This document shows, piece after piece, positions 12,947 to 47,307 of a stretch of DNA of 64,000 bases. A program made the position numbers and the translations under genes. Below the pieces are notes generated by a model that had not been told where the DNA came from, did no database searches, and saw nothing but the letters and a program-made list of their open reading frames with translations. The stretch spans positions 62,001 to 126,000 of the forward strand of contig JAPWJX010000004.1 in the NCBI GenBank assembly GCA_028283855.1, read 5' to 3'. How positions within the stretch are numbered: the stretch's first letter is position 1; every line of letters starts with the position of its first letter. This DNA is from Verrucomicrobium sp. (lineage in GTDB: Bacteria; Verrucomicrobiota; Verrucomicrobiia; Methylacidiphilales; GAS474).

Positions 12947-13365
12947 TGGCGGCGTTCTGCGAGGCCTTCGCCGTCCCCACGCGCGGGATCGGGACCTATG
13001 AGATCACGGGCGAGGTGGCGGCGTTGCTGGCCAGGAGCGGGATTCGCACCGGCACGGCCACCGTCTTCCTGGCCCACACCAGCGCCAGCCTGGTCATCTA
13101 CGAGAATGCCGATCCCTCCGCCCGGGAGGATCTCCACCGGTTCTTTTCCAAGATCGTGCCGGAAGGGGACCCGGACTACGTCCATGTGGACGAGGGCCCG
13201 GACGACACGACGAGCCACCTCCGCATGGCGCTGACGCGCACGTCGGAAGCGGTGCCGGTGAGCGGGGGGCGCCTTTGCCTGGGGACGTGGCAGGGGATCT
13301 TTCTCTTCGAGCACCGGCGCGCGCCGCATCGGCGGACGGTCTGGGTGTCCGTCGTCGGCGACTAG
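12946..13365 (+). CDS. YjbQ/UPF0047 family protein
   Basis: 139 residues, typical for the UPF0047 family. Conserved blocks are FLAHTSASLVIYENADP, the acidic HVDEGPDDTTSHLRMAL and the C-terminal GTWQGIFLFEHR. E. coli YjbQ has weak thiamine-phosphate synthase activity, and conserved His and Asp residues suggest metal binding; the true role is unresolved. It is coupled to the DUF423 gene and overlaps the convergent Hpt gene stop by 4 bp. Confidence 0.9.
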   Translation: MAAFCEAFAVPTRGIGTYEITGEVAALLARSGIRTGTATVFLAHTSASLVIYENADPSAREDLHRFFSKIVPEGDPDYVHVDEGPDDTTSHLRMALTRTSEAVPVSGGRLCLGTWQGIFLFEHRRAPHRRTVWVSVVGD

Positions 13366-13712
13366 GCCAGGTCAGGCCGGTCCTGCTGGATCAGCCGCAC
13401 GGAATCGTTGAAGAGGTCTTTGACCTCCTCCAGCCGGGCGGGGGAGGGGAGCTGCCCCCGGTCGGCTTCCGACTCGATCTCCTGCATGGCGGCGACCAGG
13501 GCGATCATGCCGAAGTTGGCGCTGCTTCCCTTGAGCTGGTGGGCGGCCTTGGAGGCCAGGCGCGGGTCCTGCGCGGCCAGGGCCTGGGCGAAGCGGGCGT
13601 GGTGGTCGGGATATTCCGCCACGAATTCCCGGAAGATGTCGGCGATGGCTTCGCCACACTCTTCGCGGACGGTGTCGAGCTGGTGCCAGTCGATCAGGGC
13701 CGTTTCGGGCAT
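13362..13712 (-). CDS. Stand-alone histidine phosphotransfer (Hpt) protein
   Basis: A 116-residue all-helical protein with the Hpt phosphoacceptor motif KAAHQLKGSSANFG, His58 being the phosphorylated residue. Such proteins shuttle phosphoryl groups between hybrid kinases and response regulators. No kinase is adjacent; the nearest receiver protein is at 21.6 kb and a histidine-kinase-like dimerisation domain is at 44.1 kb. Partners are unknown. The ATG at 13712 is preferred over a longer alternative start. Confidence 0.85.
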   Translation of the reverse strand: MPETALIDWHQLDTVREECGEAIADIFREFVAEYPDHHARFAQALAAQDPRLASKAAHQLKGSSANFGMIALVAAMQEIESEADRGQLPSPARLEEVKDLFNDSVRLIQQDRPDLA

Positions 13713-13783
13713 CGGGAGGAAGAGTATCGTCTGGCCTTGCGCTGGCAATCCTTTGATCCGATGATCGGAAGCCTCACGATTTT

Positions 13784-21637: not shown

Positions 21638-22030
21638 TCAATAAGGCTCGCTCACGGGGTGGTGCACGCCGCGCAAAAGGGCGTGGACGCTGGCGCGCAA
21701 TTCCATGGGGCTGAAGGGCTTGGTCAGGAAGAGATTGGCCCCGGAAGCCTCCGCGTCGTAGCGGGTGCGGGCCAGTCCCCGGGCGCTCATCATGATGACG
21801 GGCAGCAGGCCGTATTCGGGCAGGCTGCGGATGGCCAGGGCCGTTTCGATTCCGGAGAGGCCGGGGAGGCCTACGTCGATGATGAGGAGGTCCATGTGGG
21901 TTCGGGAGGCCATGTCGATAGCCTCCTCTCCCCGGCCCGCCATCAGCACCGCGCAGCCCACCGGCCGCAGCGCGTAGGAGATCAGGTGGAGCATGTGTGG
22001 GGCATCGTCGACCGCCAGGACCGTTTTCAT
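21638..22030 (-). CDS. Single-domain response regulator
   Basis: 130 residues forming one receiver domain: acidic pocket VDDAPHML, phosphoacceptor Asp52 in LLIIDVGLPG, Thr/Ser switch in MMSARG and Lys in FLTKPFSP. No output domain. The start overlaps the stop of the upstream phosphatase gene by 4 nt, so it is made together with that protein and probably feeds phosphorylation state into its activity (inference). It may instead be a regulator for kinases located elsewhere. Confidence 0.88.
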   Translation of the reverse strand: MKTVLAVDDAPHMLHLISYALRPVGCAVLMAGRGEEAIDMASRTHMDLLIIDVGLPGLSGIETALAIRSLPEYGLLPVIMMSARGLARTRYDAEASGANLFLTKPFSPMELRASVHALLRGVHHPVSEPY

Positions 22031-23835
22031 GGGGCGTCCCTCCGAAAGCTGGCGACCAGCAGGGTGCGGTCGTCGGCGGGCAGGCGGCCTTCCTCGTAAC
22101 GGGAGACGAAGCCAAGGAGCTCCGCGCAGATCGGCTGCGCCCGCTCCGTTTGGCCGGGCGTCATCGAGCGCATGAAGCCGCCCAGCTCCAGCGGCTCCTC
22201 CCGGCGGTTCATCACCTCGTAGATTCCGTCGGTCAGGAAGATGAGGGTGTCCCCCTCCTCCAGCCGGATGGTGCGGGCGGAGATGCGGGCGTCCCGCTGC
22301 ACGCCCAGGGGAAGGCCTTCCGTATCGAGCTGCTCGATTATCCGGCGGCGGTGGTTCACCCGCAGCGCCGGGCAATGCCCCGCGCTGGCCAGCGTCAGGC
22401 GCTCGCCGGCGGGGTCGAGGTAGGCGGCCTGCGCCGTGATGAAGGCGTCCAGGGAGGCCAGGTCCCTTTCCAGCTGGCCGTTGACCTCCGCCAGCAGCCG
22501 GTCCGGCGTGGCCGCCATGGGCAGGCGGGCGTTGACCGCGGTGCGGAAGACCGTGGCCAGGAGCGCGGCGGGCAGCCCCTTGCCCATCACGTCGGCGATA
22601 AGGAGGAGGACGCCTCCGTCCGGCAGGGCGATGGCGTCGAAGTAGTCGCCGCCCACCTGGTGGGCGCTCTGGGATGTCCCGTAGATCTCGAAGCGGGCGT
22701 GGGTGGGAAAGGAGGAGGGAAGGAGCGAGCGCTGGAGCGTGGCGGCGATCTCCAGCTCCCGCAGGGCGCGCTGCTCGCTTTCCCTCTGCCGCCGGAGATT
22801 CTCCAGGCGCCGCGCGATGCCCAGGCACTCCGCCACCGCGCGCATGAGGTCCAGCTCTCCCGTGGTGAAGTAAGGCCCTTCCTGCTCCCTGCGCCGCAGG
22901 AGAATCAGGACGCCCTGCGGATCTTCCTGAAAGGAGATCGGCACGCAGAACGCCATATAGCCGGGGCGGTGCAGCGGGTCGTCCTGCGATAGAAGGCCGC
23001 AATCCTCCACGGTGGTCTCCCGGTTTTGCAGGAACGATTCCCAGGCCACGTGCGCCTCGTTTTGTTCCAGCGACTCCGGCGGCGGCGGCACCAGGACCGC
23101 CTCCTGCGGGGAGCCCAGGCGCTCCAGCGCTCCCGCCTCGTTGCGCAGGCGGACGATGGTGTTCTGCGCGCCGGTGAGCTTGCGCAGACGCTCCACCGCC
23201 TTGTCGACGAAGGCGGGAAAATCGGCGGAGGTGGCCAGGCACTCGCCGAAATAGGAGAGGGCGGAAATGCTTTCGTAACTGTTGCTCAGCTCCTCCGCCA
23301 TGTTCTCCAGCGTCGACTCCAGCTCCCGCAGCGCTTCCTCCGGGAAACCGCGCCGGGCCGGGCCCACCCGCCGCCGTAGGACCACCGCGTGGCCGTCCGG
23401 CCGCCTTTGGTGGGAGACCTGCCCGTCCAGCAGGGTGTGTATCATGTAGAGGCCGCGCCCCCGTTCCGCCAGGGGAGAGGGGAGGGCGGGAGGCGGGGCG
23501 CCCGCCGGCACATGGAAGGAACCAGGGTCGAGGACCTCGATTTCCATCCACTCTCCCTCCCAGTGCCAGCGGAGGGTGACGCACGCCTCCGTCCGCGCTC
23601 CGATGCATCCGTGCTCCACGGCGTTGTTGAGCGCCTCCGCGGTGGCCAGCTCGATCGGCTTCCATTCCGGCGCGCATTCGGGCAGGCCGCGGGCGCGGCA
23701 GAAAGAGGCCATCTTTTCCAAAGCGGGCCGGACGGCGGAAAAGGAGGGATGCAGAATCACCTCCGCCCCCTCCCGATACGTGCCCTCCGCGGTAGGCGAG
23801 ACGTGGCGGCCGTTCACATTTCCCCAGGAAATCAT
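22027..23835 (-). CDS. RsbU-type PP2C phosphatase with N-terminal HATPase and GAF domains
   Basis: 602 residues. Residues ~20-130 are a GHKL ATPase of the RsbW/SpoIIAB anti-sigma kinase type (N box ELATAEALNNAVEHG, G2-like RGRGLYMIHTLLDG). Residues ~165-330 are GAF-like. Residues ~370-600 are a SpoIIE/PP2C phosphatase (GGDYFDAI, DVMGKGLPAALLA, LASAGHCPALR, FLTDGIYEVMN, ADDRTLLVAS). Kinase and phosphatase folds in one chain are the two opposing activities of partner switching. The divergent STAS protein is the probable substrate. The start at 23835 is chosen because it is the last ATG before the ATPase domain. Confidence 0.85.
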   Translation of the reverse strand: MISWGNVNGRHVSPTAEGTYREGAEVILHPSFSAVRPALEKMASFCRARGLPECAPEWKPIELATAEALNNAVEHGCIGARTEACVTLRWHWEGEWMEIEVLDPGSFHVPAGAPPPALPSPLAERGRGLYMIHTLLDGQVSHQRRPDGHAVVLRRRVGPARRGFPEEALRELESTLENMAEELSNSYESISALSYFGECLATSADFPAFVDKAVERLRKLTGAQNTIVRLRNEAGALERLGSPQEAVLVPPPPESLEQNEAHVAWESFLQNRETTVEDCGLLSQDDPLHRPGYMAFCVPISFQEDPQGVLILLRRREQEGPYFTTGELDLMRAVAECLGIARRLENLRRQRESEQRALRELEIAATLQRSLLPSSFPTHARFEIYGTSQSAHQVGGDYFDAIALPDGGVLLLIADVMGKGLPAALLATVFRTAVNARLPMAATPDRLLAEVNGQLERDLASLDAFITAQAAYLDPAGERLTLASAGHCPALRVNHRRRIIEQLDTEGLPLGVQRDARISARTIRLEEGDTLIFLTDGIYEVMNRREEPLELGGFMRSMTPGQTERAQPICAELLGFVSRYEEGRLPADDRTLLVASFRRDAP

Positions 23836-23886
23836 TTGCGTGGTTTGGTTGGAGGGAGTATGAATGTATAACAAAAATATCACAAT

Positions 23887-24207
23887 ATGTTTTCCACGGC
23901 TATCGTCGATATTCACGAGGAGGAGGGGAAAATGGAGGTGCGCGTGCGCCATCCGCGGCTGGACGCCTCCGTCGCCGACCGTTTCAAGGCCGCCTGCGCG
24001 GCGGCCTGGAGGCCGGAGGTGAGGGAACTTTCCATCGACCTGCGGGAGGTCGAGTTTGTCGACAGCACGGGCATCGGCGCCCTCCTTTCCCTCTACCGCA
24101 GGATGCCGGCGGAAAGCCCCCGCCTGGTGCGTCTCTGCCACGTGCGGCGGGGCGTCCGTTCCGTCATCGAGCTGCTGCGCCTGCAGGCGATCTTCACGCT
24201 CGAATAA
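23887..24207 (+). CDS. STAS-domain anti-sigma-factor antagonist
   Basis: 106 residues of STAS fold. The phosphorylatable Ser60 lies in VEFVDSTGIGALL, as in SpoIIAA and RsbV. Dephosphorylation of this serine by a PP2C enzyme lets such proteins bind and silence an RsbW-type kinase. It is divergent from the ATPase-GAF-PP2C gene with 51 AT-rich bases between. TGTATAACAAA at 23865-23875, 11 bp before the ATG, is repeated at the same distance ahead of recA. A strong bidirectional terminator follows at 24227. Confidence 0.88.
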   Translation: MFSTAIVDIHEEEGKMEVRVRHPRLDASVADRFKAACAAAWRPEVRELSIDLREVEFVDSTGIGALLSLYRRMPAESPRLVRLCHVRRGVRSVIELLRLQAIFTLE

Positions 24208-40297: not shown

Positions 40298-42487
40298 ATG
40301 AAACAGGTCCTTTTTATTTGTACCGGCAACATCTGCCGGAGCCCGATGGCCGAGGGGCTCTTCCGGGACCTGGTGAAGGGGCGCAAGGACATCCAGGTGG
40401 GCTCGGCCGGGATCGGCGCCATCTCCGGCCAGCCGCCCAGCCTCCACTCCGTCGAGGTGATGGAGGAGCTGGGCATCGACATCAGCCGCATCCGCAGCCG
40501 CCCGATCAACGCGGACATGGTCCGCAAGTCCGACTTCATCTTTTGCATGACCTACGGGCACCTCGACTCGATGCTCATGCTCTTCCCGCAGGCGGCGGAC
40601 AAGATCTACCTGGTGCGGGAGTTCGAGCCCGGCCTGCCCGTCATCGCCCGCGAAGTGCCCGACCCCATCGGCTGCCCGCGCGACGTCTACCGCCACGCGC
40701 GGGACCAGATCGCCGGGGCGCTTCCCTCCCTCCTCGACTTCGTCCTCCACGCCTCCGCCGGGCCGGAGGAGGCCGTCCCCGGCCGCAAGGTCTTCCTGGC
40801 CGCCGATCATGACGGCGTGGCCCTCAAGGAATCCCTGCGGGACTGGTTCCGCCGCCGGGAAATTTCCGTGGAGGACTGCGGCGCCTTTTCCGGCGAGGTG
40901 GGCGACTACCGCGACTACGCGGGCCGCGTCGCCCGCGCCGTGGCGGAGGGGGACGCCCTCTGCGGCGTCCTCATCTGTGATTCCGGCCTGGGGCTGAGCA
41001 TCGCCGCGCACAAGGTGCCCGTCCCCGGGGCCCGCGCCGCCCTCATCGGCGATCCCGCCGCCGCCCGCGCCAGCCGCCGGGACCACGACGCCAACATCCT
41101 TTGCCTGGCCGCGCGCGGCACCAAGCCGCAGCGGGCCATCGAAATCCTGGAAGCCTGGTTTGAAGCCGGGTTTGCCGCCAACCTCCCACCCCAACCCCCG
41201 AAGACGATTCAGAAAATGGACTCCCTCTCCCCCGCAAAGAACCACCCGCAGCCGCCCTCCCTCCAGCAGGCCGATCCCCAGATCGCCTCCCTCATCGCCA
41301 AGGAGGCCGTCCGCCAAGGGGAGAACATCGAGCTGATCGCCTCGGAAAACTTCACCAGCCGCGCCGTCATGGAGGCGCAGGGCTCCTGCCTGACCAACAA
41401 GTACGCGGAGGGCTACCCCGGCCGCCGCTGGTACGGCGGCTGCGAATACGTCGACGAGATCGAGCAGCTGGCCATCGACCGTGCCAAGCAGCTCTTCGGC
41501 GCGGAATACGTCAACGTCCAGCCCCACTCCGGCTCCCAGACGAACATGGCCGTCTACTTCGCCTTCCTGAAACCCGGGGACACCATCCTGACCATGGACC
41601 TCTCCCACGGCGGGCACCTGACCCACGGCCACAAGATGAACTTCTCCGGCCGCTTCTACAACGTGGTCCATTACGGCGTGACGGAGAAGACGGAGACGGT
41701 CGACTACGACCACCTGGAAAAGCTGGCCCAGGAACACCGCCCCCGGATGATCACCGCCGGGGCCTCCGCCTACTCCCGCGTCATCGACTTCGCGCGGCTG
41801 GGGAAGATCGCCCAGTCCGTCGGCGCGCTGCTCCTGGTCGACATGGCCCACATCGCCGGCCTCGTCGCGGCGGGCGTCCATCCCTCCCCCGTCCCGCACG
41901 CCGACTTCGTCACCACCACCACCCACAAGACCCTGCGCGGCCCGCGCGGCGGCATCATCCTGGCCAAGGAAAAGTACGGCAAGGAACTCGACTCCCAGGT
42001 CTTCCCCGGCATCCAGGGCGGCCCGCTGGTCCACGTCATCGCCGCCAAGGCCGTCTGCCTGGGCGAGGCCCTGCGGCCCGAGTTCAAGGAATACCAGAAA
42101 CAGGTCGTCCAGAACGCCAAGGCCCTGTGCGAGGGGATGAAGAAGAACGGCTACCGCATCGTCTCCGGCACCACGGAGAACCACCTGATGCTCGTCGACC
42201 TCCGCCCGCACGACCTGACCGGCAAGGACGCGCAGGAAGCCCTGGACCGCGCGGGCATCACCATCAACAAGAACGCCATCCCCTTCGACACCGTTTCCCC
42301 CTTCAAGGCCGGCGGCATCCGCCTGGGCACCCCCGCCGTCACCACGCGCGGCATGAAGGCGGACGAGATGTTCGACATCGCCGACCTGATCGACGAGGCG
42401 CTCAAGCACCGCGGCCAGCCGGAAAAGCTCGAGGCGATCCGCGTGCAGGTGCGGGACCTCACCGCCCGCTTCCCGCTCCCTTATTAA
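40298..42487 (+). CDS. glyA: Three-domain fusion: LMW protein phosphatase - RpiB - serine hydroxymethyltransferase
   Basis: One open frame of 729 codons. Residues 1-150: LMW phosphatase with nucleophile Cys8 and Arg14 in [15 protein letters not shown] and the acid Asp in EVPDPIG. Residues ~164-290: ribose-5-phosphate isomerase B ([45 protein letters not shown]). Residues 307-729: GlyA, which transfers the serine hydroxymethyl group to tetrahydrofolate, with PLP Lys544 in [10 protein letters not shown]. An in-frame ATG at 41216 could start a separate GlyA, but no stop separates the parts and no good ribosome site precedes it. In Bacillus, ywlE, rpiB (ywlF) and glyA are neighbouring separate genes, so the order is ancestral and the joining is new. 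Confidence 0.88.
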
Positions 42488-43455: not shown

Positions 43456-43995
43456 ATGCAAAAGATCCTCTTCGTCGACACGGGCAACAGCGGCCGGTCC
43501 CCCATGGCGGAAGCCCTTTTTCGCCAGCAGCTGGGGAACCGCCTGGATATGGAGGTCTCCTCCGCCGGGACCGCGGTGACCGACGAGAAGGCCTTCCCGC
43601 ACGCCGTCACCGTGATGCAGGAGCGCGGCGTCGACCTCTCCGGCCACCGTCCCCGCCAGGTCACGGCGAAGATCCTGAAGGAGAGCGACCTGGTCTTCTG
43701 CATGACCGAGGGGCACCGCGATTCCCTCAGCCACTATTTCCCGGACGAAGCGCACAAGCTCCGCCTGCTCGGGGAGGCGGTTCCCGGCCTGAAGGCGGAG
43801 GCCATGGACGTCAAGGACCCCCATTTCGGTTCCGTCGAGGAATACCGCGCCACCCGCAACGTCCTGCGCGACGCCATGCCCCACGTGGAAGCCGCCGCCG
43901 ACAAGGCCGGCCTCTACGCCTCCCTGGCCAACGCCGAGTGGATCCGCATGGCGAAGGATTCCCTGCGGGAGATCCTGCGCGACCAGGTCAAATAG
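43456..43995 (+). CDS. LMW phosphatase homologue lacking the catalytic cysteine
   Basis: 179 residues with the low-molecular-weight phosphatase fold: P-loop ILFVDTGNSGRSPMAEALF and the C-terminal DPHFGSVEEYRATRNVLRD that usually carries the acid Asp. In the P-loop the nucleophilic Cys of C-x5-R is Asp8, and the second Cys is Gly. The rest of the loop, including the Arg, is kept. It should therefore bind phosphate or phosphoprotein but not hydrolyse it by the normal cysteine mechanism. It has a C-terminal helical extension of ~35 residues. The active paralogue is the N-terminal domain of the fusion at 40.3 kb. Confidence 0.82.
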   Translation: MQKILFVDTGNSGRSPMAEALFRQQLGNRLDMEVSSAGTAVTDEKAFPHAVTVMQERGVDLSGHRPRQVTAKILKESDLVFCMTEGHRDSLSHYFPDEAHKLRLLGEAVPGLKAEAMDVKDPHFGSVEEYRATRNVLRDAMPHVEAAADKAGLYASLANAEWIRMAKDSLREILRDQVK

Positions 43996-44004
43996 GCGGC
44001 GCGC

Positions 44005-44970
44005 CTAGGATTGCGCCGCCGGCGCCTGGTTGGGCGCCTCGATGCTTTGCTGCAGCTCCGCCTTGCGGGCGTAGAGGTCCCGGCTGAAGTTTTGCAGCCG
44101 CAGGGTGATCTCATGGCACTTCTGCACGGAATCGGCCAAGCCCGCCACGTGCGCCCGCAGCGGCGACTCGGCCGGGCAGTCAGCCTCCAGGAGATAGGCG
44201 AAGCCGAGGATCGAGGTGACCTGGTTGGAGAAATCGTGCGCCATCTTTCGCAGCTCGGTGGCGGCCGCCACGTCGTCCGCCAGGGGAAAGAACTGCGGCA
44301 GGCCGATTTCCCAGTCCGCCCGGCGGGTGATCTTCATGTTGACCCCGTCATTCTGCACCAGGGCCACTGGCCTCCCCAGGAACTCGACGGCGGCGGTGTC
44401 GTCCGTCACGGATTGCCCGGCCGCCTTCACCGCCGCGTAGGCTTCGGAGAGGAGGGAGCGGGAGAAAATCTGCGGCGTCTGCACCGCCCAGACCTTGGCG
44501 CGGTCCAGCGTGCGCGAGACGGTGCCGTCCGGGTTTGCCTCCTTGAGAGTGTCGATGGAGGGGTGGCCGCAGACGGCGGCCCCGTGCTCCCGGGCGGCGG
44601 CGAAGACCTTGTCGATCAAGGGCGCGTCCAGGAAGGGGCGCGCGCCGTCCTGGATCATGACGTAGTCCAGGCCGGGGTCGACGGCGGCCAGCCCCGCGGC
44701 GACCGAGTCCTGCCGCTCCGCCCCTCCGGGAATGACGCGGATGGGGACGGCGGGATCGGCGGGCAGCAGGGCGGCGACCGCCTCCTCCTTCCCGGCCGAG
44801 GTGACCACGACGACCTGCCGCACCTGCGGGGAAGCCAGGATCCGCTCCAGGGTGATCTGGAAGACCGTCTTCCCGAGAACGGGAGTGAAGAGCTTGTCGA
44901 ATCCGAGGCGGCGGCTGGAACCGGCGGCGGCCAGCACCACGCCCAGGCCGTGACCTTGCGCGGGGGCCAT
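44005..44970 (-). CDS. ispD: IspD fused to a histidine-kinase-like dimerisation (DHp) domain
   Basis: 321 residues. Residues 1-~230 are 2-C-methyl-D-erythritol 4-phosphate cytidylyltransferase of the MEP isoprenoid pathway: VVLAAAGSSRRLGFDKLF, DYVMIQDGARPFLD, VWAVQTPQIFSR and SVTDDTAAVEFLG. Residues ~235-305 are not part of IspD: ELRKMAHDFSNQVTSILGFA is an H-box of the HisKA type, followed by a second helix (QKCHEITLRLQNFSRD). No HATPase domain follows; the protein ends in an Ala/Pro/Gln tail. It is cotranscribed with mlaD (2-bp gap). In diderms ispD is usually a stand-alone enzyme or fused to IspF, so this fusion is unusual. Confidence 0.88.
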   Translation of the reverse strand: MAPAQGHGLGVVLAAAGSSRRLGFDKLFTPVLGKTVFQITLERILASPQVRQVVVVTSAGKEEAVAALLPADPAVPIRVIPGGAERQDSVAAGLAAVDPGLDYVMIQDGARPFLDAPLIDKVFAAAREHGAAVCGHPSIDTLKEANPDGTVSRTLDRAKVWAVQTPQIFSRSLLSEAYAAVKAAGQSVTDDTAAVEFLGRPVALVQNDGVNMKITRRADWEIGLPQFFPLADDVAAATELRKMAHDFSNQVTSILGFAYLLEADCPAESPLRAHVAGLADSVQKCHEITLRLQNFSRDLYARKAELQQSIEAPNQAPAAQS

Positions 44971-44972
44971 CG

Positions 44973-45698
44973 CTAGCGGCGCTCCTTGGCGCGCTCCGAG
45001 GCGACGTCCGAGTAGAAGAGGATGCCCCGTTCCCGCAGGTTGGAGATGAAGGCGGAGAGGTCGTTGGCCGTCTTGGGATCGCGCAGGAGGCGGCCCACGG
45101 TGCCCTTGCCGCTTTGGGCTTCCGCCAGGAGGGAGTCGATGCGGCCCATGGCGGAGCGCATGCTCTTGATGGCCTCCCGCAGGTCGGTCGTCGTCTCCGG
45201 AGTCAGCACCTCGTTGTTGAGCTTGGCGGAGATGGAGCGCAGCTCGTTGAGGACGGGCTGGGCCGCGTCCGTCAGGGAGGAAAGGCCCGGCGCGCGCTGG
45301 CCTTCCACGCGGTCCCCGTTTTTCAGGTAGGGCGCGTCGGAATCGGGGATGGGGTCGATCTGCACGTTGCGGTCCCCCAGGATGCCGACTTCCGCGATGC
45401 TGATGCGCGCGTCGCTGCGGATATGAAGGTTTTTGAAGATTTTCAAGTCCACGGAAACGCCCTGGCCGTCCTGCGCCGGGGAGGGGGCGCTGTTGACGAT
45501 GCCGATGGGCGCGCCCGCCAACTGGACGTCGGACCCCTTGAGCAGGCCGTCGGCGTTGGGGAAGTGGACGTGGATGGTGTAGGTCTTCGAGATCCCCTGG
45601 CCGAAGCGGCCGAAGACGATCACCAGGACGGCGATGACCGCCAGGGCGAGGAGGACGAAGACGCCCACTTTGAATTCAAGGCCTTTGTCGTGTTGCAT
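44973..45698 (-). CDS. mlaD: MlaD-like MCE-domain lipid-binding protein
   Basis: 241 residues: one N-terminal membrane helix (FKVGVFVLLALAVIAVLVIVFG), then an MCE domain (HFPNADGLLKGSDVQLAGAPIG, later ISIAEVGILGDRNVQID), then a helical tail. It forms the periplasmic hexamer that carries phospholipid between membranes for the MlaFE transporter. Third gene of mlaE-mlaF-mlaD. Confidence 0.93.
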   Translation of the reverse strand: MQHDKGLEFKVGVFVLLALAVIAVLVIVFGRFGQGISKTYTIHVHFPNADGLLKGSDVQLAGAPIGIVNSAPSPAQDGQGVSVDLKIFKNLHIRSDARISIAEVGILGDRNVQIDPIPDSDAPYLKNGDRVEGQRAPGLSSLTDAAQPVLNELRSISAKLNNEVLTPETTTDLREAIKSMRSAMGRIDSLLAEAQSGKGTVGRLLRDPKTANDLSAFISNLRERGILFYSDVASERAKERR

Positions 45699-45712: not shown

Positions 45713-46477
45713 TTAATTCTCTTCCGCCACGTCGTTCTCATGGGAGACGCCGTGGATGAAGTCCCGGATGACGGGGTCCTGCGATTCCTGCATCTCCTGC
45801 GGCGTCAGGCGGCAGTAGATCTTTCCCTGGTGGAGCATGGCGATGCGGTCGCCGATGGTGTAGGCGCTTTTCATGTCGTGGGTGACGATCACCACGGTGG
45901 TGCCCTGTTCGTTGGCGGTGCGGAGGATGAGCTTGTCGATGCTGTCGGAAGTCTGGGGGTCGAGGCCGGCGGTGGGCTCGTCGTAAAGGATCAGCCGGGG
46001 GCGGCTCATGACGGCGCGGGCCAGGGCCACGCGCTTGCGCATGCCGCCGCTCAGGTCGGAGGGCATCTTTTTTTCCTGCCCTTCCAGGCCGACGAGGGCC
46101 AGGGCCTCCGCCACCCGCCGCTTCACCTCGGAGGCGTGCGGGGCCTTGAAGGCGCCGACGCGCTCCGTCAGGGAGAAGCCGACGTTCTCCCCCACCGTCA
46201 TGGAGTCGAAGAGGGCGCCGTTCTGGAAGACCATGCCCATCTCCTGCCGCAGGGGGATCAGATCCGTCTCCGAAAGGTGGGTCAACTCGGTGTCCCGGTA
46301 CCAGACCTCGCCGGAGTTCGGCTTGAGGAGGGCGATGAGGTGTTTGAGCAGCACGCTCTTGCCCCCGCCGCTGCGGCCGATGATGACCAGTTTCTCCCCC
46401 TCGGCGATCTCCAGGTCGACGCCCTTGAGGATCTGCTGCCGCTTGATGGTCTTGTGCAGGTTTTTGACCCGGATCAT
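45713..46477 (-). CDS. mlaF: MlaF-like ABC transporter ATPase
   Basis: 254 residues. Walker A IIGRSGGGKSVLLKHLIAL, Q-loop in QEMGMVFQNGALFD, ABC signature DLSGGMRKRVALARAV, Walker B LILYDEPTAGLDP, and H-loop VTHDMKSAYT. This is the energising subunit of the Mla system that maintains outer-membrane lipid asymmetry. It overlaps mlaE by 4 nt and is followed 14 bp on by mlaD. Confidence 0.96.
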   Translation of the reverse strand: MIRVKNLHKTIKRQQILKGVDLEIAEGEKLVIIGRSGGGKSVLLKHLIALLKPNSGEVWYRDTELTHLSETDLIPLRQEMGMVFQNGALFDSMTVGENVGFSLTERVGAFKAPHASEVKRRVAEALALVGLEGQEKKMPSDLSGGMRKRVALARAVMSRPRLILYDEPTAGLDPQTSDSIDKLILRTANEQGTTVVIVTHDMKSAYTIGDRIAMLHQGKIYCRLTPQEMQESQDPVIRDFIHGVSHENDVAEEN

Positions 46478-47307
46478 GTCTTGGAATGGAACAGGGCGTT
46501 GAGAAGGAAGCTGAAGAAGAAGTTGGAGACGAGCACCAGGATGGAGGAGTGGACCGCCGCCTGCGTGGTGGCTTGGCCGACGCCCTCCGCGCCGTGCCCG
46601 GCGGTCAGCCCCTTGTGGATGCTCACCAGGGCGATGATCATGCCGAAGAAGAGCGCCTTCGTCAGGCCGATCCAGATGTTCTTTACCAGGGTGAACTTGA
46701 TCATGTTGTGCATGTAGTAGGTCGGGTCGACCTCCATGACCGGCACGGCCACGATCCAGCTGGCCAGGATGCCGATGGCCATGGCCAGGCCCACCAGGAG
46801 CGGCATGGAGAGGACCAGAGCCAGAAAGCGGGGGACGATGAGGTATTGGGTGGGATAGACGGCCAGGGCCCGCAGGGCGTCGAGCTGCTCCGTCAGCTTC
46901 ATGGTGGAGAGTTCCGCCGCGATGGCCGAGCCGACGCGCCCGGCCACCATCAGCGCGCAGAGGACGGGACCCAGTTCCCGGCACATCGCCACCGCCACGA
47001 CGGGGCCGGTGGCGGAAGCCATCCCCAGTTCCCGGAACTGGAAGAGAGTCTGCGCGGTGAAGACCGCCCCGGTGAATCCGCCGGTGATGAGGACGACGCC
47101 CTGGGAGCGAATGCCGCAGAAGAGGACCTGCCGCAGCAGCTGCCTGCAGCGCAGGGGGTAGGTGAAGAGGGTCTGGACGATTTCCTGGAGGAGAAAGCAA
47201 GCGTGGCCCGTCGCCTCGATGAAGGCGATGGTTGCCGCGCCGAATTTGGAGATCAGGTGCGTCACGGAGGGAAACGAAACCTTAATGGCGGTGGGCCTAT
47301 TAGACAA
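46474..47307 (-). CDS. mlaE: MlaE-like permease
   Basis: 277 residues with about five membrane helices and the MlaE core (VLITGGFTGAVFTAQTLFQF, CRELGPVLCALMVAGRVGSAIAAEL in part, and MEVDPTYYMHN near the coupling helix). First gene of mlaEFD-ispD. The N-terminal ~35 residues are amphipathic, as in other MlaE proteins. It is separated from the clpC terminator by about 30 bp. Confidence 0.95.
   Translation of the reverse strand: MSNRPTAIKVSFPSVTHLISKFGAATIAFIEATGHACFLLQEIVQTLFTYPLRCRQLLRQVLFCGIRSQGVVLITGGFTGAVFTAQTLFQFRELGMASATGPVVAVAMCRELGPVLCALMVAGRVGSAIAAELSTMKLTEQLDALRALAVYPTQYLIVPRFLALVLSMPLLVGLAMAIGILASWIVAVPVMEVDPTYYMHNMIKFTLVKNIWIGLTKALFFGMIIALVSIHKGLTAGHGAEGVGQATTQAAVHSSILVLVSNFFFSFLLNALFHSKT

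Follow-up and report, generated by a model that had tools for sequence, protein, structure and literature searches.

An ATPase-less, HisKA-type DHp hairpin carried by the isoprenoid enzyme IspD in Methylacidiphilales

The cytidylyltransferase IspD encoded in the window (the whole stretch of 64,000 nucleotides that was analysed) carried, behind its enzyme domain, a genuine but degenerate DHp hairpin of the HisKA type. This hairpin lacks an ATPase domain and was almost certainly derived from the DHp domain of a histidine kinase. Two-component phosphotransfer domains are usually located on sensors and dedicated relay proteins, and IspD is an unexpected host for a DHp-derived module; no description of a phosphotransfer domain covalently attached to IspD was found in the open-access literature. 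The fusion of IspD to an orphan HisKA-type DHp domain had been proposed from the letters of the DNA alone (the sequence-only reading), and was borne out by the HisKA matches of the relatives, a profile comparison and the predicted hairpin. The features of the gene are listed below.

44005..44970, minus strand: ispD-DHp fusion gene, an open reading frame of 321 aa plus stop codon
44308..44940, minus strand: IspD (MEP cytidylyltransferase) domain, residues ~11-221 (Pfam, TIGR, Foldseek)
44038..44286, minus strand: DHp-like helical hairpin, residues ~229-311, with alpha1 at 229-264 and alpha2 at 272-311 (AlphaFold, HisKA/DHp homology, Foldseek)
44191..44250, minus strand: H-box segment, residues 241-260, with R241, H245, N249 and G256 invariant in 22 tails
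44080..44094, minus strand: alpha2 signature Q293...R297, R297 being invariant and Q293 present in 21 of 22 tails

The coordinates 44005-44970 of the sequence-only reading were right, and the strand was specified here as minus (44008-44970 plus the stop codon). Its description of a complete cytidylyltransferase was confirmed for residues 11-221. In the 321-aa protein, Pfam detected PF01128 at residues 11-220 with an E-value of 4.9e-52, and the score against TIGR00453 (206.5 bits) exceeded the cut-off of 181.3, which placed the protein in the IspD family. An alignment of 13 proteins showed conserved positions of the IspD family, K26, D108, R157 and K213 among them, to be invariant, and a Foldseek search with the full-length model listed IspD-type structures only. 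A complete cytidylyltransferase domain is likewise found in the bifunctional IspDF, which indicates that IspD tolerates C-terminal fusions (PMC10663253), but the fusion partner here is a signalling domain and not another enzyme of the pathway.

Past residue 222, the chain enters LRKMAHDFSNQVTSILGFAYLL, followed by a second helix and the C-terminus. No CA/HATPase domain was found in the 321-aa protein, which terminates behind the hairpin, in agreement with the absence of an ATPase domain noted earlier. A frameshifted or truncated kinase beside ispD was ruled out, as there was no ATPase domain and the relatives ended alike (300-320 aa). The presence of the frame and the tail in 22 distinct IspDs, together with purifying selection, also ruled out chance or an artefact. 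In two of the relatives (L107 and L146, from genomes G001 and G002), the DHp hairpin is followed by about 65-100 residues of an SPLSP-like repeat rich in Pro and Ser; this repeat is missing in the IspD protein of the window.

The H-box MAHDFSNQVTSILGFA, containing His245, was exactly as given by the sequence-only reading. From the sequence of the window protein by itself, the assignment to HisKA would be marginal: the PF00512 match (E=0.011) was under the gathering cut-off of 26.9 bits, with scores of 16.2 bits for the full length and 19.8 bits for the tail alone. The relatives and the profile comparison settled this marginal match in favour of a HisKA-type DHp domain. PF00512 matched 13 of 16 aligned tails, the best with 3.5e-7, and hhalign of the 22-tail profile against a profile of 67 DHp sequences, taken from kinases of this order, gave a probability of 98.2% over 62 columns, with His aligned on His, compared with 0.7% for the reversed control. 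The best non-IspD matches of the tail profile across the class were long, kinase-length frames, and the non-IspD matches read out from an all-prokaryote scan were histidine kinases with HDxNN boxes. No match to PF01627 (Hpt) was obtained with the window protein or the set of tails. An origin from SPOB_a was ruled out, since there was a single weak match to it among the tails.

In the AlphaFold model of the full-length protein, helices were predicted at residues 229-264 and 272-311, and the tail-only model gave helices at positions 5-39 and 47-86 with a mean pLDDT of ~86; the prediction was of a monomer and was built from 13 sequences. The DHp-like hairpin, whose absence would have spoken against the sequence-only reading, was thus predicted. 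When the tail was searched by Foldseek, kinase DHp domains ranked best (ZraS and an HK-RR complex), and the list also included, further down, the DHp domain of ERS1, an rmsd of 1.4 being reached within this set of kinase DHp matches, although none of these matches to a small helical hairpin was significant (all E>0.1).

The conservation of the tail was centred on the H-box. R241 (-4), H245, N249 (+4), G256 (+11) and R297 were invariant among 22 distinct tails (~12.5 effective sequences), so that every tail had the combination of acceptor His and N/T at +4 of HisKA; relatives carrying the tail without the His, which would likewise have counted against a DHp domain, did not occur. The residue at H+1 was D in the window protein and in 18 of the 22 tails, and A, Q or R in G003, G007, G008 and G029. 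The mean majority-residue fraction was 0.67 over residues 241-262 versus 0.42 over alpha2. The tail is under purifying selection: of eight pairwise dN/dS values, seven lay between 0 and 0.23 and the remaining one, for the window versus L107, was 0.49, comparable in scale to those of the IspD domain. Compared with the HisKA (PF00512) DHp domains of HDxNN kinases, the IspD tail shares the H-box with His and N+4, the hydrophobic spacing and a hairpin of similar length, with a profile similarity of 98%. It differs from these kinases in lacking a CA/ATPase domain, in its location behind a metabolic enzyme and in its variable +1 acid, and has traits of its own in the invariant R-4 and a G-Y/F motif.

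The tail was found on IspD in 22 of about 60 Methylacidiphilales genomes (22/61, including that of the window); in the others IspD stopped shortly past residue 222 or was not found. Among the matches listed for ~700 Verrucomicrobiota genomes (overlapping sets of 384 from the class and 388 from the phylum), no IspD of another order bore the tail, and an all-prokaryote pattern scan detected 12 IspD fusions, all of which fell within the clade of the order. Two MAG contigs titled Bacteroidetes and Betaproteobacteria (L112 and L118) have an ispD that lies inside the Methylacidiphilales clade, and are probably mislabelled records. The IspD-domain tree required four state changes of the tail. The tail is old and was lost about four times; judging from the tree, the pattern is best read as an old gain followed by losses in f8 (probably Methylacidiphilaceae), f5, part of the genus g10 and, at the base, possibly f4. 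As sister families carry a tail-less IspD, the tail is an accessory element.

The presence of the tail followed the abundance of two-component systems. The 22 genomes with the tail contained 12 to at least 64 HATPase_c matches and the 36 genomes without it 3-11, these counts taking in a few GyrB- or MutL-like matches and the top counts being lower bounds. Receiver matches numbered at least 20 in the former and 2-11 in the latter. The two groups were separated with an AUC of 1.0 by HATPase_c, by receivers and by receivers per Mb, and the separation persisted among genomes of 2.2-3.0 Mb. Within the genus g10, the single genome with the tail had 12 HATPase_c and 20 receiver matches, versus 6-11 and 4-7 in those without it. 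Hpt domains were detected in 21 of the 22 genomes with the tail, the exception being G008 (68% complete), and in only three genomes without it, all from f4. The tail is thus co-retained with two-component systems, which is partly confounded with genome reduction. Genome size alone predicted the presence of the tail with an AUC of 0.93, and the about four independent losses, all in the expected direction, gave 1/16 in a sign test (p=0.06), so the co-retention is supportive but not conclusive. The co-loss of the tail with kinases and receivers represents a natural experiment in several lineages.

The conservation of the His in every copy suggests that IspD is connected to two-component signalling or exerts feedback on it. 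It is probable that the tail engages two-component partners, and the chances are about even for our reading as a whole, in which a DHp domain captured by IspD forms a dimeric bundle that docks a phosphorylated receiver for phosphotransfer or dephosphorylation. An ancestral IspD of Methylacidiphilales would have captured the DHp domain of an HDxNN-type histidine kinase, and the tails of two IspD subunits would pair into a four-helix bundle. This bundle would dock a phosphorylated receiver domain as its presumed partner. There, His245 and Asn249 (H+4) could mediate reversible phosphotransfer, as in Spo0B, ChpT and PhyT, and/or dephosphorylation of the receiver, as in HisKA DHp domains. The state of the bundle may tune IspD and so couple the supply of isoprenoid precursors to two-component signalling; alternatively, depending on which way the phosphate would flow, IspD may set the phosphorylation of a regulator.

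With regard to its mode of action, we give slightly less than an even chance to the plausible assignment that the tail acts on a receiver, by phosphotransfer or as a phosphatase, and is not trans-phosphorylated by a kinase. The kinase activity of HisKA kinases depends on the +1 acid, which their phosphatase activity does not require, and the opposite holds for the N/T at +4 (PMC3510030). A version of HK853 without its CA domain reportedly showed phosphatase activity, as cited in PMC7005713. A receiver-facing role was favoured over that of an ATP-dependent phosphorylation acceptor because N+4 is invariant and the +1 acid was lost in several lineages keeping the tail. The sequence-only reading had offered three options for the tail, namely receipt of phosphate from another kinase, dimerisation of the enzyme and a tie between isoprenoid supply and envelope signalling. 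Contact with two-component systems gained support from the invariant His and N+4 and from the co-retention, while a kinase as the phosphate donor was less favoured than exchange with receivers.

The trans-phosphorylation of His245 by the CA domain of a separate histidine kinase, which would switch IspD, is accordingly regarded as unlikely. The invariant His and the D at +1 in the lineage of the window and most others are compatible with it, and the genome of the window is rich in kinases (16 HisKA and 22 HATPase_c matches), but G003, G007, G008 and G029 have lost the +1 acid and yet keep the tail and the His. The search for a partner kinase also bears on this point. Across families, no kinase, receiver or any other gene was conserved downstream of ispD (loci L130, L131 and L138-L141 left out), and no orthologous kinase was confined to the genomes with the tail at the strict cut-off of 0.3. 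At the relaxed cut-off of 0.2, a hybrid-kinase group (L151, L174, L189 and L204) was present in four genomes with the tail and in none of the five examined without it, as trans-phosphorylation might predict; this pattern probably reflects richness in hybrid kinases, which as a class came nearest to a partner specific to the tail.

DHp hairpins serve in dimerisation, and IspD itself forms homodimers. The tail, accessory as it is, might be a repurposed dimerisation or allosteric hairpin whose role is to strengthen the IspD dimer or to bind another protein, without phosphorylation. This explanation is also improbable: dimerisation by itself fails to account for the invariant His and N+4, neither of which a pure bundle needs, the conservation is focused on the H-box and not spread over both helices, and the loss of the tail follows the depletion of two-component systems. 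The stretch of alpha1 directly behind the His is where kinases contact receivers, and a decoy that forms mixed dimers with a related HDxNN kinase or competes for receivers, damping signalling according to IspD abundance, would suit the strong conservation of this stretch and the closeness of the tail to HDxNN kinase DHp domains, but it is very unlikely, as no single HDxNN kinase was found conserved across all genomes with the tail and a decoy has no need of an invariant His.

For the receiver-facing role of the tail, the closest functional analogues may be the kinase-derived histidine phosphotransferases Spo0B, ChpT (PMC3433190) and PhyT (PMC5898713); the tail might also work in the manner of an isolated DHp domain. 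The modelled tail has the combination expected of a Spo0B/ChpT-like protein, i.e., a DHp-type hairpin with a conserved His and without a working ATPase domain. ChpT, however, is a dedicated signalling protein with a degenerate CA-like domain, whereas the IspD tail lacks such a domain and is attached to an enzyme, and the sequence of the tail resembles HisKA and not SPOB_a. Hpt (PF01627) would be comparable in its phosphotransfer role, by functional analogy only, as it constitutes a separate family. If the tail is active, it would provide a direct post-translational wire from the supply of isoprenoids, and hence of undecaprenyl and the envelope, to signal transduction. More tentatively, an essential MEP enzyme may serve as a phosphorelay node across much of the order, its DHp module exchanging phosphate with response regulators, with isoprenoid flux and two-component output directly regulating each other and the module being dropped upon loss of signalling.

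The neighbouring genes and the candidate relay components in the window are as follows.

44973..45698, minus strand: mlaD, 2 bp upstream of ispD
45713..46480, minus strand: mlaF (ABC ATPase)
46474..47307, minus strand: mlaE (permease)
13362..13748, minus strand: stand-alone Hpt protein, a possible phosphorelay component (PF01627, 1.3e-13)
21638..22033 (end approximate), minus strand: single-domain receiver, a possible phosphorelay component (PF00072, 1.3e-21)

The association of ispD with mlaEFD pointed out by the sequence-only reading was real, with the order mlaE-F-D-ispD and the 2-bp gap to mlaD. The mlaE-mlaF-mlaD-ispD operon was found order-wide and was common to families with and without the tail. 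It says little about the tail because the operon of the sister families holds a tail-less IspD, and a specific link between the tail and mlaEFD was ruled out by the identical operon in the tail-less f4, f5 and f8. The Hpt protein (13.4 kb) and the receiver (21.6 kb) noted earlier were both verified by Pfam; neither was found to be linked specifically to IspD.

Other gene arrangements were observed in the window. The region 21638-24207 comprises the receiver, a GAF/SpoIIE phosphatase with an N-terminal HATPase_c_2 domain and, by eye, an ORF resembling STAS that is encoded on the other strand, and looks like a partner-switching module. On the plus strand, one ORF of 729 aa (40298-42487) contains a low-molecular-weight phosphatase, RpiB and serine hydroxymethyltransferase according to Pfam, an apparent three-enzyme fusion. 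A second, stand-alone low-molecular-weight phosphatase gene (43456-43995, plus strand) faces ispD in convergent orientation, its end lying 9 bp away from the ispD stop codon.
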